DNA of 64,000 bases from Methanosarcina sp. MTP4 (lineage in GTDB: Archaea; Halobacteriota; Methanosarcinia; Methanosarcinales; Methanosarcinaceae), in NCBI RefSeq assembly GCF_000970045.1, contig NZ_CP009505.1:1674001-1738000 (forward strand), in the 5' to 3' direction. The translations under genes and the position numbers were made by a program. Of the stretch, positions 23,329 through 37,160 are shown piece after piece (within the stretch, counting starts at the first letter, position 1; every line of letters starts with the position of its first letter). The notes below the pieces were generated by a model, which made no database searches, was not told the origin of the DNA, and saw only the letters and a program-made list of their open reading frames with translations.

Positions 23329-24801
23329 TTATTGAAGATGCTGCAATAGAAACGCTTTTAGCTCAGCAAAAGCGTGATCCGACTCAGGTGAGCCCAGCAC
23401 GCCTACGTAATCCGCATGGGCAGTGCCGTCATATACGAGGATATCGGCTACTACGCCCGCTTGATGGAGTTTGATATGGGTGCGAGCAGTGGCGCTCAAG
23501 AGCAAGTCTCGAGTCCCCGTAATTAGGAGTGTGGGCGGGAAACCATGAAAGTCGCCATACAGAGGAGAGACCAGCGTATCTTTCAAATCACGACCGTTCG
23601 CATAGAGTCGGATACAAGCCGCGACGAATCCATCATAGGTGACCAGGTTCCGGTCGATACCGTCATTGATGTACCAGGAGTCACCTGTCTTGCTCATGTC
23701 AGCGCCAGGCGTACCCAGGAAGAGCGCGCCGGGTACGTCAATACCCAGCTCGATCAAGTGCTGCACCAGCCCCATGGTGAGATTGGCGCCACCCGAAGAG
23801 CCACCCATAGCCACTGAGCGTGCTGGTCGCGTTTTTAGGAGGTGTTGATAGACGCTCAACACATCGTTCCTCGCGGTCGGTGCGGGATGCAGAGGCGGCA
23901 TGCGGTAGTCAATGGACAGTACTCTAACCTTGGCCAGATGGGCAATCACTATGGCTTCGAGGGTGCATACTTCACCCCCGTTCAAAACAAAGGCGCCCCC
24001 ATGAGTGTGGACAAATAATTTATCCTCCAACCTGGGATCTATCTCTGAAGGTGTCACATGATAAACGTTGACTCCCTCGATCATATCGTGTTCAACGGAT
24101 ACCGAAAACTGTTTGCTGATTTCTCGCGCCATGTCGAGCTTACCTTCGTCCAATTGCGCGATAACCGCAAGCCATTCAGCTTCGCTCTGGGGTTCGATCT
24201 GCACCTTCGCCGGATCAGGTTGTGGGGTGATGGCGATGGCATCTCGCATGAAATCACTGGCGCCATCAGGCGGCGGCAATGTGCGGGGGCCGATCTGCCA
24301 TGCAGTTTTCTGCTCGCCAAAGGCTTCACGCAGTTTGGCTTCCTGCACGTTGGTCAGATTAGACTCAATCAGGCTCCCCATTTTGCCTTTGAGTTCATCT
24401 TGCAGCTTATCTGCGGCAGCACTACCGGTAACGGTAAGCAAGAATAGGGCCGAGGTTCCTTCAGTTACCTTAGCACGCACTGATTTGATAAAGTTGTCAT
24501 CAATGCCGTAGTCGCTATAACGGCCCGCGAAAGCACCCAGGACCGCGCCTACAGCCATGCCAAAGAAGGGCATAAAAAAGAGCAGGCCAAAGAGCATGCC
24601 CCAAAATGCGCCGCCGAGTGCCCCGGGCCCGGTCAGGCTCACCGCTTGCCGGGTTTTGGGTTCCTTTTCGCCAGGTTGCCATTCAACAACAGCCGCATCT
24701 TGAATTTCAATCAGTTGTTGTTTTTGTAAGCTCTCCAGCTTGTCCAGTGCTTCGCCTGCACTGGTAGGATTATCGAATTTCCAAACAGTTAATGTTGCCA
24801 T
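23329..24801 (-). CDS. DUF1269 domain fused to HSL-type alpha/beta hydrolase
   Basis: A 490-residue fusion. Residues 1-165 are a DUF1269 domain: MATLTVWKFDNP, a Gly-rich hydrophobic hairpin (GALGGAFWGMLFGLLFFMPF near 60-80), then GIDDNFIKSVRAKVTEGTSA. Residues about 240-490 are an alpha/beta hydrolase of the hormone-sensitive-lipase group with the oxyanion motif HTHGGAF, nucleophile elbow GGSSGGAN, acid TGTRDLLLS and the His in DGTAHADY, so an esterase is likely. ATG 24801 follows TAGGAGAAAA. It lies 145 bp after sulfatase 1, likely in the same transcript. Its DUF1269 part resembles the stand-alone gene at 36176-36694. Confidence 0.88.
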   Translation of the reverse strand: MATLTVWKFDNPTSAGEALDKLESLQKQQLIEIQDAAVVEWQPGEKEPKTRQAVSLTGPGALGGAFWGMLFGLLFFMPFFGMAVGAVLGAFAGRYSDYGIDDNFIKSVRAKVTEGTSALFLLTVTGSAAADKLQDELKGKMGSLIESNLTNVQEAKLREAFGEQKTAWQIGPRTLPPPDGASDFMRDAIAITPQPDPAKVQIEPQSEAEWLAVIAQLDEGKLDMAREISKQFSVSVEHDMIEGVNVYHVTPSEIDPRLEDKLFVHTHGGAFVLNGGEVCTLEAIVIAHLAKVRVLSIDYRMPPLHPAPTARNDVLSVYQHLLKTRPARSVAMGGSSGGANLTMGLVQHLIELGIDVPGALFLGTPGADMSKTGDSWYINDGIDRNLVTYDGFVAACIRLYANGRDLKDTLVSPLYGDFHGFPPTLLITGTRDLLLSATARTHIKLHQAGVVADILVYDGTAHADYVGVLGSPESDHAFAELKAFLLQHLQ

Positions 24802-24946: not shown

Positions 24947-27313
24947 TTACTGCTCGGTCATCATCCGTTTCAGGTCAGCTTCATCGTCTTTGATCAGTTC
25001 CCCCGATACGTCAAGTTCAACCTGCCTGATCCTGCCTGTGAAAGTGAATGGTGCCCTGTATTCTTCAGGGTGGACACTGTCGGCTGCGTCGTAACCGCAG
25101 CTCAGCCCGATGATGCCAAAGAGGTTGGGTACGGTGTAAGGCAGGTCCTTGCTGGCTACAAGCTCGCCGTTGACGTAGAGCTGGCTCCGCCCCGCAGACC
25201 CTTTCCCTTCCCCAAAATCGGGTTCGCCGGTCTTTTCAAACTCATAGCGCAGGGTGACTTCCCCTTTCGGGATAGGGTCGGGCGAGCTTATCCTGAACTT
25301 TTCGAGCCCTGAGTAGTTGTGGACGTGATGCAGGCGTCCGTCCTTGACGTAGAAACTGTATCCCCCATGGCGGTTTCCGTGTGCGAGCAGGACCCCCTCG
25401 GCTCCTCCTTCGGGGATGAGCACGCGGGCTGTGATGCTCCAGGGCCTGTTGTAGACCCTTGGGGCAGCAGAGAACTGGACCGGGGCTCCGCCTCCATAAT
25501 AGACGTATTTCGTGCGCGGGCGTGCAATGGTCGGCCTTGGCACGTTCATGCGCTCCAGGGCTGCTGTTGCCAGGGGGAGCACCCCGTACTTGCCGGCCTC
25601 GGTGTACCAGCGCTGGACCATTTCCTGCAGTTTCTCAGGCTTTTCTGCTGCCAGGTTTTTCATCTCAGCCGGGTCTTCTGCCAGATCATAGAGTTCCCAG
25701 CCCTCGGAATCAAGCACCTTTAACACCCTGGTATTCAGGGGCATCCCGAAGAACCAGCCCTCCCTCAGGGGCTCGGCAAAGCTTGAGCCCGGGAAGGGGC
25801 AGACCGCCCTCCAGCCGTCGTGGTATATGGAGCGGTGTCCGAACATCTCGAAGTACTGGGTAATGTGCTTTGTAGGGGCATCGGGGTCGTCAAAGGTGTG
25901 GGCGAAACTGACACCCTGTATGGGAGACTGGGGTACCCCGCGGATGGTTTTGGGAGCTTCCGTATCCAGGGCTTCGAGCACTGTGGGTACGAGGTCAATC
26001 GCATGGGCGTACTGGCTGCGGTTTTCCCCCCTTGCACGGATGCCCTCCGGCCAGGAGACAATGCAGGCGTCGCTTATCCCCCCGCGGTAGGTCTCGCGCT
26101 TCCAGCGGCGGAATGGGGTATCTCCAGCCCAGGTCCAGCCCCAGGAATAGTGGTTGAAGGTCTCGGGGCTGCCCCATTTATCGATGCGCTTCAGGTTGTC
26201 CTCCAGGGTCTCTTCCACGTTGTTGAAAAAGAGCATCTCGTTGAAAGTCCCGTGCACCCCTCCCTCGGCGCTGGCTCCGTTATCCGAGAGCACGATGACC
26301 AGGGTATTGTCCAGTTCTTCGATCTCTTCAAGGAAGTCAAGAATGCGGCCGAAATGGTAATCGGTCTGCTCAATGAAGGCTGCAAAGACTTCCATCTGGC
26401 GGGCATAGACTTTCTTTTCGGTATCCGAAAGGGAGTCCCAGGCAGGCACGTCGGGGTCGCGCTTTGAGAGCAGCGCATCGGGGGGGACAATTCCCAGCCC
26501 CTTCTGGCGTTTGAAGACCATCTCCCGGTATTTGTCCCAGCCCATATCGAACTTGCCTTTGTATTTATCTATCCACTCTTTTTCGACATGGTGCGGGGCG
26601 TGCCCTGCTCCGGTGGCATAGTATAAGAAGAAGGGTTTTCCCGGGGCATTGTGCTGGGCGTCTTTGATAAATTCGATAGCTTTGTCCCCAAGGTCGATGT
26701 TCAGGTGGTAGCCCTCTTCGGGAGTTTTGGGGACCGGCACCGGGTGGTTGTCATAGGTCAGGTCGGGATGCCACTGGTCGGTATCTCCTCCCAAAAAACC
26801 GTAGTAACGCTCAAAACCTCTCCCCAGGGGCCAGCGGTGGAACGGACCTGCCGTGGTCGTCTCTTCCGGCGGGGTCAGGTGCCATTTGCCCACGGCAAAG
26901 GTGTTGTAACCCTGTTCCAGCAGGATTTCCGAGAGAAAACCGTGCTCAAAGCCCATATACCCGTTGTGTGCGGGGTAGCCCATGGACAGTTCGGTGATGG
27001 CGGAGAGCCCCAGGGTATGGTGGTTCCTGCCCGTCAGCGCACAGCCCCGGGTAGGAGAGCAGAGTGCCGTGGTCTGCATATTGGTATAGCGCAGGCCCCT
27101 TTTCGCCAGCCGTTCCAGGTTGGGTGTTTCGCAGAGCCCCCCGAAAACTGACATCTGCCCGTAGCCCACGTCATCCAGGATAAAAAATATCACATTCGGT
27201 GCACCATCTCCGGCCCGTGTCGGTCTGGGCCAGGCAGGTGAGGATTCTTCAAGTGTCCTTCCGATAATACCCGGAAAATGTGTTCCGGGCTCGTATTCGA
27301 TCAATTCAGGTAT
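24947..27313 (-). CDS. Arylsulfatase 1 (Cys-type, long form), apparent ATA start
   Basis: Hydrolyses sulfate esters; substrate unknown. The active-site motif ALCSPTRGC (Cys 85, to become formylglycine) follows metal-binding LDDVGYG, and the later blocks GKWHLTP, GHAPHHV and SDNGASAEGG are all present. The last 170 residues form a beta-sandwich (LamG-like). About 788 residues. The nearest standard start, TTG 27304, is 15 nt from the GGGGGG run, whereas ATA 27313 is 6 nt away and gives MPELIEYEPG, which aligns with MPLKEYRSDT of sulfatase 3. No signal peptide. Downstream comes the DUF1269-hydrolase fusion. Confidence 0.93.
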   Translation of the reverse strand: MPELIEYEPGTHFPGIIGRTLEESSPAWPRPTRAGDGAPNVIFFILDDVGYGQMSVFGGLCETPNLERLAKRGLRYTNMQTTALCSPTRGCALTGRNHHTLGLSAITELSMGYPAHNGYMGFEHGFLSEILLEQGYNTFAVGKWHLTPPEETTTAGPFHRWPLGRGFERYYGFLGGDTDQWHPDLTYDNHPVPVPKTPEEGYHLNIDLGDKAIEFIKDAQHNAPGKPFFLYYATGAGHAPHHVEKEWIDKYKGKFDMGWDKYREMVFKRQKGLGIVPPDALLSKRDPDVPAWDSLSDTEKKVYARQMEVFAAFIEQTDYHFGRILDFLEEIEELDNTLVIVLSDNGASAEGGVHGTFNEMLFFNNVEETLEDNLKRIDKWGSPETFNHYSWGWTWAGDTPFRRWKRETYRGGISDACIVSWPEGIRARGENRSQYAHAIDLVPTVLEALDTEAPKTIRGVPQSPIQGVSFAHTFDDPDAPTKHITQYFEMFGHRSIYHDGWRAVCPFPGSSFAEPLREGWFFGMPLNTRVLKVLDSEGWELYDLAEDPAEMKNLAAEKPEKLQEMVQRWYTEAGKYGVLPLATAALERMNVPRPTIARPRTKYVYYGGGAPVQFSAAPRVYNRPWSITARVLIPEGGAEGVLLAHGNRHGGYSFYVKDGRLHHVHNYSGLEKFRISSPDPIPKGEVTLRYEFEKTGEPDFGEGKGSAGRSQLYVNGELVASKDLPYTVPNLFGIIGLSCGYDAADSVHPEEYRAPFTFTGRIRQVELDVSGELIKDDEADLKRMMTEQ

Positions 27314-27319
27314 TATTAT

Positions 27320-27592
27320 CCCCCCATTCTTTCGGAACCTGCAAGACCACTCCCTGGCTTGCGGTTCAATGCTCCGATCCTTGCTTCGATCTCTGCTTCG
27401 ATCTCTGCTTCGACCTTCACTTCGACCTTCACTTCGACCTTCACTTCGACCTTCACTTCGACCTTCACTTCGATCCTTGCTTCGACCTTCGCTTCGATCT
27501 TTAATTCATTTACTTACCTGTAAATATAAATTCACTTTTATGTATATCTTTTTATACATGTCCATTTATTTCTCCCGGTGTTGAAATAAAAT
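27320..27592 (-). promoter_or_regulatory. Promoter and hairpin leader of sulfatase 1, with 12-bp repeats
   Basis: Reading the minus strand: a promoter-like block (CATGTATAAAAAGATATACA, about 27535-27575), then a purine/pyrimidine tandem array of 12-bp units (27376-27505, plus-strand TTCACTTCGACC and variants), then a hairpin AACCGCAAG...CTTGCAGGTT (27334-27368), then GGGGGG at 27320-27325 and the ATA start. The promoter block and hairpin recur at 37043-37160 without the array. Confidence 0.6.
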
Positions 27593-36175: not shown

Positions 36176-36694
36176 TTAAGCTGCCGGAGCCACTTCTGCT
36201 TCTTCCTCTTCTTCGACAAACATTTCGCGCAGCTTGTCCTCTTCTTCTTTGGACAGGTTGGAAGCGATAAGTTCAAACTCGATGCTTTTCAGGGCCTCCT
36301 GGACCTTATCCTGCACTGCGTCGCTTGTCAGCAGGAAGAGGGCAGAGGTGCCTTCGGTCACTTTGCTGCGAACCGACTTGATGAAGTCATCACTGATACC
36401 CACGTCGGCAAAAGAGCCTGCAAGCGCACCGAAAGCGGCCCCGACAACCATCCCGAAGATCGGAACCAGGAAAATCAGGCCGAAGAGCATGCCCCAGAAT
36501 GCTCCGCTAAGTGCGCCTACCCCGGACATGCTGGTTAACTGCTGTGTTTTCGGTTTCTTTTTACCCATTGGCCAGGAGACAACTGCTGCATCCTGCAGGG
36601 TAATCAACTGTCTCTTGCTCAAATCCTCAATCACTTCAAGTGTATGTTGTGCACCGCCAGGGGTGTCGAATTTTAGAACTGTTAGTGTTGCTAT
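36176..36694 (-). CDS. DUF1269 protein, apparent ATA start codon
   Basis: A 172-residue DUF1269 protein: strand TLTVLKFDTP, then KRQLITLQDAAVVSW, a Gly-rich hydrophobic hairpin (GALSGAFWGMLFGLIFLVPIF), VGISDDFIKSVRSKVTEGTSA and an acidic tail of Glu residues. It parallels the first 165 residues of the fusion at 23329-24801. The first standard start (GTG 36634) would remove the first strand; protein-like sequence begins at ATA 36694, 6 nt after a perfect AGGAGGT, exactly where the fusion has ATG (MATLTVWKFD against (M)ATLTVLKFD). Role unknown; it precedes sulfatase 3. Confidence 0.88.
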   Translation of the reverse strand: MATLTVLKFDTPGGAQHTLEVIEDLSKRQLITLQDAAVVSWPMGKKKPKTQQLTSMSGVGALSGAFWGMLFGLIFLVPIFGMVVGAAFGALAGSFADVGISDDFIKSVRSKVTEGTSALFLLTSDAVQDKVQEALKSIEFELIASNLSKEEEDKLREMFVEEEEEAEVAPAA

Positions 36695-37042
36695 ATTCTA
36701 ACCTCCTTTTATGTCTGGAATTTTTTCTGCATAAATATTTTCATCGCTGCTTTTTATTATGCAATTTCGCCAATTGAAGTGAAACTGTCATCTTCGCCGT
36801 TTTGTAGCAGTTTATCACCGGGAGAAAATCTTGCGAAGGTCAGTGAGCCCTTTTGCACCGGATTTGAGGAATAGTAAATTTATGACCGGGACTTCGGCTG
36901 TGTGATGTTTTCCATCTACCGCCACAGGGATCTCCTGAACCCTACATCCGGAAGTAAGCGACGTTGTCAGGTGTAATTTTTAGGTGTAAGAATGATAACG
37001 CCGGGAAATAAAGTGCCAGCTCTGTCCCCTGTCTATTTTTAT

Positions 37043-37160
37043 ATTGTACCCCCAATTCACGGAACCTGCAAGACTTCCCCCCTGGCTTGCGGTTCAATAA
37101 TTAACTTTTATATAATTCGATTTTTATGTATATTTCTTTATGCATGTTGATTTATTTTAC
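37043..37160 (-). promoter_or_regulatory. Second copy of the promoter and hairpin leader
   Basis: On the minus strand: a promoter-like block (CATGCATAAAGAAATATACA), then ATTGAACCGCAAGCCAGG, a loop, CTTGCAGGTTCCG and a GGGGG run at 37049-37053. This is nearly identical to the sulfatase 1 leader except for a few loop bases and the lack of the 12-bp array. An ATA again lies 6 nt after the G run, but opens only a 20-codon frame. The next gene downstream is DUF1269, about 350 bp away. Confidence 0.65.

Follow-up and report, generated by a model that had tools for sequence, protein, structure and literature searches.

The closest described systems are bacterial. The infC gene starts at AUU (ATC in Streptomyces) and is subject to autoregulation by IF3, as given in the background of a study on Streptomyces (PMC5472188). 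That study describes sigR, which encodes a stress sigma factor and starts with GTC in 32 of 34 cases and with GTT in two; the start follows a conserved AGGAGGTG ribosome-binding site, is under experimentally demonstrated IF3 repression, is canonical in other genera, and is misannotated by software (PMC5472188). The archaeal starts listed in the texts of PMC7531240 and the M. mazei Ribo-seq study PMC11456600 are AUG, GUG, and UUG, plus CUG for small ORFs; AUA is absent from the text of the former and ATA from the text of the latter. Among 61,358 ancestral AUG starts in 36 genome groups, 363 had changed to GUG, 113 to UUG, two to CUG, and one to AUU, with no change to AUA reported (PMC5622118). 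A literature search covering few subscription journals found no archaeal AUA start described. AUA is not among the starts permitted by gene finders, which therefore mis-start or miss genes of this kind.

The putative start of a DUF1269 gene (Pfam PF06897 match at E 1.2e-38 and 131.9 bits vs. a curated cut-off of 26.9), whose product is a membrane protein, was investigated in Methanosarcina sp. MTP4. The window, meaning the whole stretch of 64,000 nucleotides analysed, belongs to a genome of 4.21 Mb in a single contig that groups with Methanosarcina and is closest to several Methanosarcina species and one Methanosarcinaceae archaeon. On the minus strand, the surroundings of the start read AAAAGGAGGTTAGAAT-ATA-GCA ACA CTA ACA GTT CTA AAA TTC GAC, and the codons after ATA translate as ATLTVLKFD (Table 1). 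The AGGAGGT that a sequence-only reading had placed 6 nt upstream of ATA 36694 is read directly on this strand, with TAGAAT (36700-36695) as the spacer. In frame, ATA is preceded by a single AAT and, before that, by the stop TAG, which rules out a start further upstream; the first in-frame ATG, GTG, or TTG downstream is the GTG at codon 21. The same reading had matched ATLTVLKFD to a fusion protein encoded elsewhere in the window, and rightly so, as the fusion gene at 24801 opens with ATG GCA ACA TTA ACT GTT TGG, its ATG aligned with the ATA. This gene (23329-24801, minus strand) joins DUF1269 to an alpha/beta hydrolase (Abhydrolase_3), and the DUF1269 portion clusters with sequences from Chloroflexota, apart from the Methanosarcina genes. 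A fold search with the DUF1269 model gave no match at E <= 0.001.

Table 1. Features at the start of the DUF1269 gene and in its upstream region (positions in the window).
Feature	Position	Strand	Remarks
ATA start codon of the DUF1269 gene (proposed)	36692..36694	-	shared by 15 genes in 13 genomes
Perfect Shine-Dalgarno AGGAGGT, 6 nt 5' of ATA	36701..36707	-	exact in 13/15 ATA genes
T directly before the start codon (-1)	36695..36695	-	T/C in 15/15 ATA genes
In-frame stop TAG, two codons 5' of ATA	36698..36700	-	excludes starts further upstream
DUF1269 coding sequence, 172 codons counted from ATA	36176..36694	-	Pfam PF06897
GTG at codon 21, the first canonical codon in frame; rejected as start	36632..36634	-	ATA in L083, GTA in L137; within helix 1 of the model
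5' leader, probably long, its extent deduced from the TATA-like box	36695..37104	-	partly conserved in relatives
TATA-box-like TTATATAAAAG	37105..37115	-	conserved in L083, L085; similar in L138, L135, L141
Hairpin AACCGCAAG...CTTGCAGGTT near the inferred DUF1269 transcript start	37063..37094	-	one other genome copy

Comparison with orthologues, which had been proposed as a check, was carried out and strongly supports ATA as the start. Among 80 homologues, the homologous codon is ATG in 71, GTG in 3, and ATA in 6, all six of the Methanosarcina type. A wider search for ATA through 112 family genomes found it at the exact start position in 15 genes of 13 Methanosarcina-type genomes, the window included, and these genes fall in two genus-level groups. 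ATG occupies the start in 14 other Methanosarcina genes, and homologues outside the Methanosarcina group have ATG or, in three cases, GTG. The start codon of the 15 genes is always ATA and never ATT or ATC, yet ATA makes up only 33 of the 139 Ile codons within them. L141 (4301-5466) holds two adjacent DUF1269 genes, an ATA gene followed by an ATG gene, which form a natural test pair.

The two kinds of gene also differ in the bases preceding the start. The exact AGGAGGT is present in 13 of 15 ATA genes vs. 3 of 14 ATG genes (Fisher p 7e-4, relatedness ignored). The -1 base is T or C in every ATA gene and A in all 14 ATG genes, and A stands at -1 in just 42 of 103 ATG starts of the source genome. 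Start codon and -1 base switched together in 4/4 independent pairs on the DNA tree and 3/3 on supported branches of the protein tree; the 3-4 independent contrasts behind the Shine-Dalgarno (SD) and -1 tests are too few for significance after tree correction. The -1 pattern was spotted after inspection of the data and not predicted beforehand, so the coupling is a hypothesis to test rather than a fulfilled prediction. Since some genomes have tandem DUF1269 copies, gene conversion between paralogues could be an alternative cause of joint switching. A single origin of ATA was rejected (AU test, p 4.8e-8 on DNA and 0.0027 on protein), and well-supported branches force at least three start-codon changes.

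Why ATA is kept is a question separate from whether it is used. There is close to an even chance that ATA reflects a slightly deleterious ATG-to-ATA change that drifted and carries no regulatory meaning, with the perfect SD and little need of the protein making it tolerable. Consistent with drift, a bad codon can be carried by a strong SD, strong SDs accompany non-AUG starts in PMC5622118, and the tree fit places the ATA-to-ATG rate at about twice the ATG-to-ATA rate, a difference that is not significant. However, ATA has been retained throughout one 10-gene clade, all of it ATA, as well as elsewhere, and each switch comes with a concerted -1 change.

As to whether ATA is used at all, the true start in the closest clade might be an NTG two codons upstream (ATG, TTG, or CTG followed by AAT ATA), ATA being a plain Ile codon and the window's TTG-to-TAG change having broken or weakened the gene. 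We consider this improbable. Six of the seven closest genes do carry such a codon at -2 (TTG in three, CTG in one, and ATG in two), and it could serve as a start in the closest relatives that have TTG or ATG there. However, it abuts AGGAGGT at 0-1 nt, the TTG and ATG genes accounting for five of the 15 ATA genes, whereas strong-SD starts in a 464-kb sample of the genome peak at a spacing of 6-8 nt, with only 2 of 58 at 0-1 nt. The spacing from SD to ATA is 6-7 nt in the ATA genes. The TTG also derives from GGAGGTTTGA, which in ATA and ATG relatives either lies in another frame or yields a TGA in frame; eight more ATA genes beyond the closest clade have no NTG at codon -2, and an ordinary Ile codon ought to vary to ATT or ATC. 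The gene starts of L137 and L138 read GGAGGTCATGAATATA, with an ATG one base from the SD and in frame just 5' of ATA, possibly a decoy or an alternative start. Coupling to an in-frame uORF was rejected, as the upstream frame shows no coding constraint.

That initiation occurs at a canonical codon inside the frame, for instance GTG 36634, with ATA and the preceding sequence untranslated, is very improbable. GTG is found at codon 21 in 13 of 15 genes and is the choice that automatic annotation would make, but the codon is ATA in L083 and GTA in L137, and a start there would leave a perfect SD idle. It would also cost beta strand 1, as the sequence-only reading had foreseen, together with half of helix 1: the AlphaFold model has strand 1 at residues 2-9 (pLDDT 85-93) and codon 21 within the helix. 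Codons 2-20 are under purifying selection (pN/pS 0.32 vs. 0.98 for the same frame just upstream), a coding-type constraint that is present in ATA genes lacking any upstream start. Nine of the 15, the window included, have no ATG, GTG, or TTG 5' of ATA back to the preceding stop or, failing that, to the end of the inspected stretch; in a tenth, the sole upstream candidate is a GTG lying before the SD. A sequencing or assembly error, which the earlier reading had thought less likely on account of a second ATA start nearby, is excluded on other grounds, because ATA is common to 15 genes in 13 genomes and identical in 13 separate assemblies, several of them complete.

That second start, assigned to a sulfatase gene (27313-27311), lacks proof, given a conserved TTG three codons downstream. 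At 27302-27313 on the minus strand, three consecutive ATA codons are followed by CCT GAA and this TTG, and 63%-identical relatives have ATG CCG/TCA nearby. GGG ATA ATA ATA CCT GAA TTG is kept in L153, and L154 keeps ATA ATA CCT GAA TTG, TTG included. No GGAGG lies upstream of the sulfatase ATA and its -1 base is A; given these features and the conserved TTG, the proposal of weak initiation shared across the locus is not supported. Initiation at the DUF1269 ATA may itself be weak. The DUF1269 case stands independently of the sulfatase ATA, which gives it no support.

The hairpin AACCGCAAG...CTTGCAGGTT, with similar flanks, occurs in exactly two copies in the genome, the second (~27340-27370, minus strand) just before the sulfatase at 27304, and it is also kept in L003, L004, and L153. 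No Rfam match to a known RNA element was obtained up to E=1 within 22-46 kb, a region that includes the hairpin. Tandem repeats of the GATCGAAG / GTCGAAGTGAAG type (27370-27500, minus strand) separate the sulfatase copy of the hairpin from a TATA-like box; L153 has far fewer of them.

Judged by its sites, the source genome uses ATA as a gene-specific start, since no other perfect-SD ATA site resembles a gene start. AGGAGGT-N5-7-ATA occurs 23 times in the 4.21-Mb genome vs. 26 times in the reversed control, and the DUF1269 site alone combines a long open frame, a stop shortly before it, and the lack of a canonical start close by. Genome-wide use of ATA starts was rejected, as the 23 sites do not exceed that control. 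Weaker-SD ATA sites showed no clear excess in the 464-kb genome sample, and a brief scan of ATT start sites gave no clear case. A further candidate is a 249-codon frame on the minus strand of L209 that reads GGAGGTGTGAAGATA and then SWLGHSGFLLEG; a GTG start would touch the SD there, and an ATA start would be well spaced.

We read the DUF1269 ATA best as a real, long-lived start carried by a perfect SD, in an archaeon but comparable to bacterial infC (AUU) and sigR (GTC). The sequence evidence comprises position, SD, spacing, conservation, a coding N-terminus, absence of alternatives, and gene-specificity. Translation of DUF1269 very probably begins at this AUA. The perfect AGGAGGU would position the archaeal 30S subunit and, at the spacing of 6-7 nt, bring AUA to the P site, where the initiator Met-tRNA (anticodon CAU) would pair with the A and U of the codon and tolerate the C34.A3 mismatch, presumably inserting methionine. 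The U usual at -1 may assist through a base pair with initiator tRNA A37, an extended codon-anticodon interaction reported for chloroplasts (EMBO J 2003, as cited in PMC4587860). A strong SD together with a -1 pyrimidine would seem to compensate for the weak codon, and DUF1269 may thereby be held at a low level, tolerated or selected.

Archaea lack IF3 and use aIF1 instead. The rate of initiation at AUA is expected to be below that at AUG and sensitive to this fidelity factor. In Sulfolobus, aIF1 favours discrimination against non-canonical starts (as cited in PMC6237735), so output from AUA should drop as aIF1 rises. Switch-like control of the start is a possibility; regulation is without direct support, since the search for a conserved structure masking the SD was negative: the SD is paired in local folds, yet to no greater extent than in synonymous shuffles, and the alignment yields no consensus fold. 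It is conceivable, though rather unlikely, that AUA is a selected, rate-setting start to which AUG has switched repeatedly in company with a -1 pyrimidine (usually U, which could pair with A37) and a perfect SD, making output dependent on aIF1 stringency. A selected AUA start, if true, would be an archaeal counterpart of infC and sigR control. ATA conserved in 13 archaeal genomes, together with the natural ATG/ATA pairs, offers direct tests of how archaea select starts, how aIF1 proofreads, and what the -1 base contributes, in a genus (Methanosarcina) for which genetic tools exist.

Three hallmarks of the infC and sigR kind are found at the DUF1269 gene: a start other than ATG, GTG, or TTG at a conserved position across a group (15 genes, 13 genomes), a strong SD at the correct spacing, and no canonical start suitably placed for use. 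Compared with the usual archaeal starts, the proposed mechanism is likewise SD-led, with Met-tRNAi and aIF1/aIF2, whereas AUA is unlisted in the texts cited above. The stronger SDs at non-AUG starts and the coupled changes at -1 to -3 in PMC5622118 resemble what is seen at DUF1269. Like infC, the gene has a conserved start with a third-base mismatch to the initiator anticodon; in contrast, the infC product is itself a fidelity factor and its codon is AUU/AUC rather than AUA. With sigR it shares a non-canonical start conserved within one genus, a conserved ribosome-binding site, canonical starts in other genera, and misannotation by software, whereas sigR is bacterial, starts with GTC, and is experimentally IF3-repressed, and the DUF1269 case is archaeal with a proposed AUA start.
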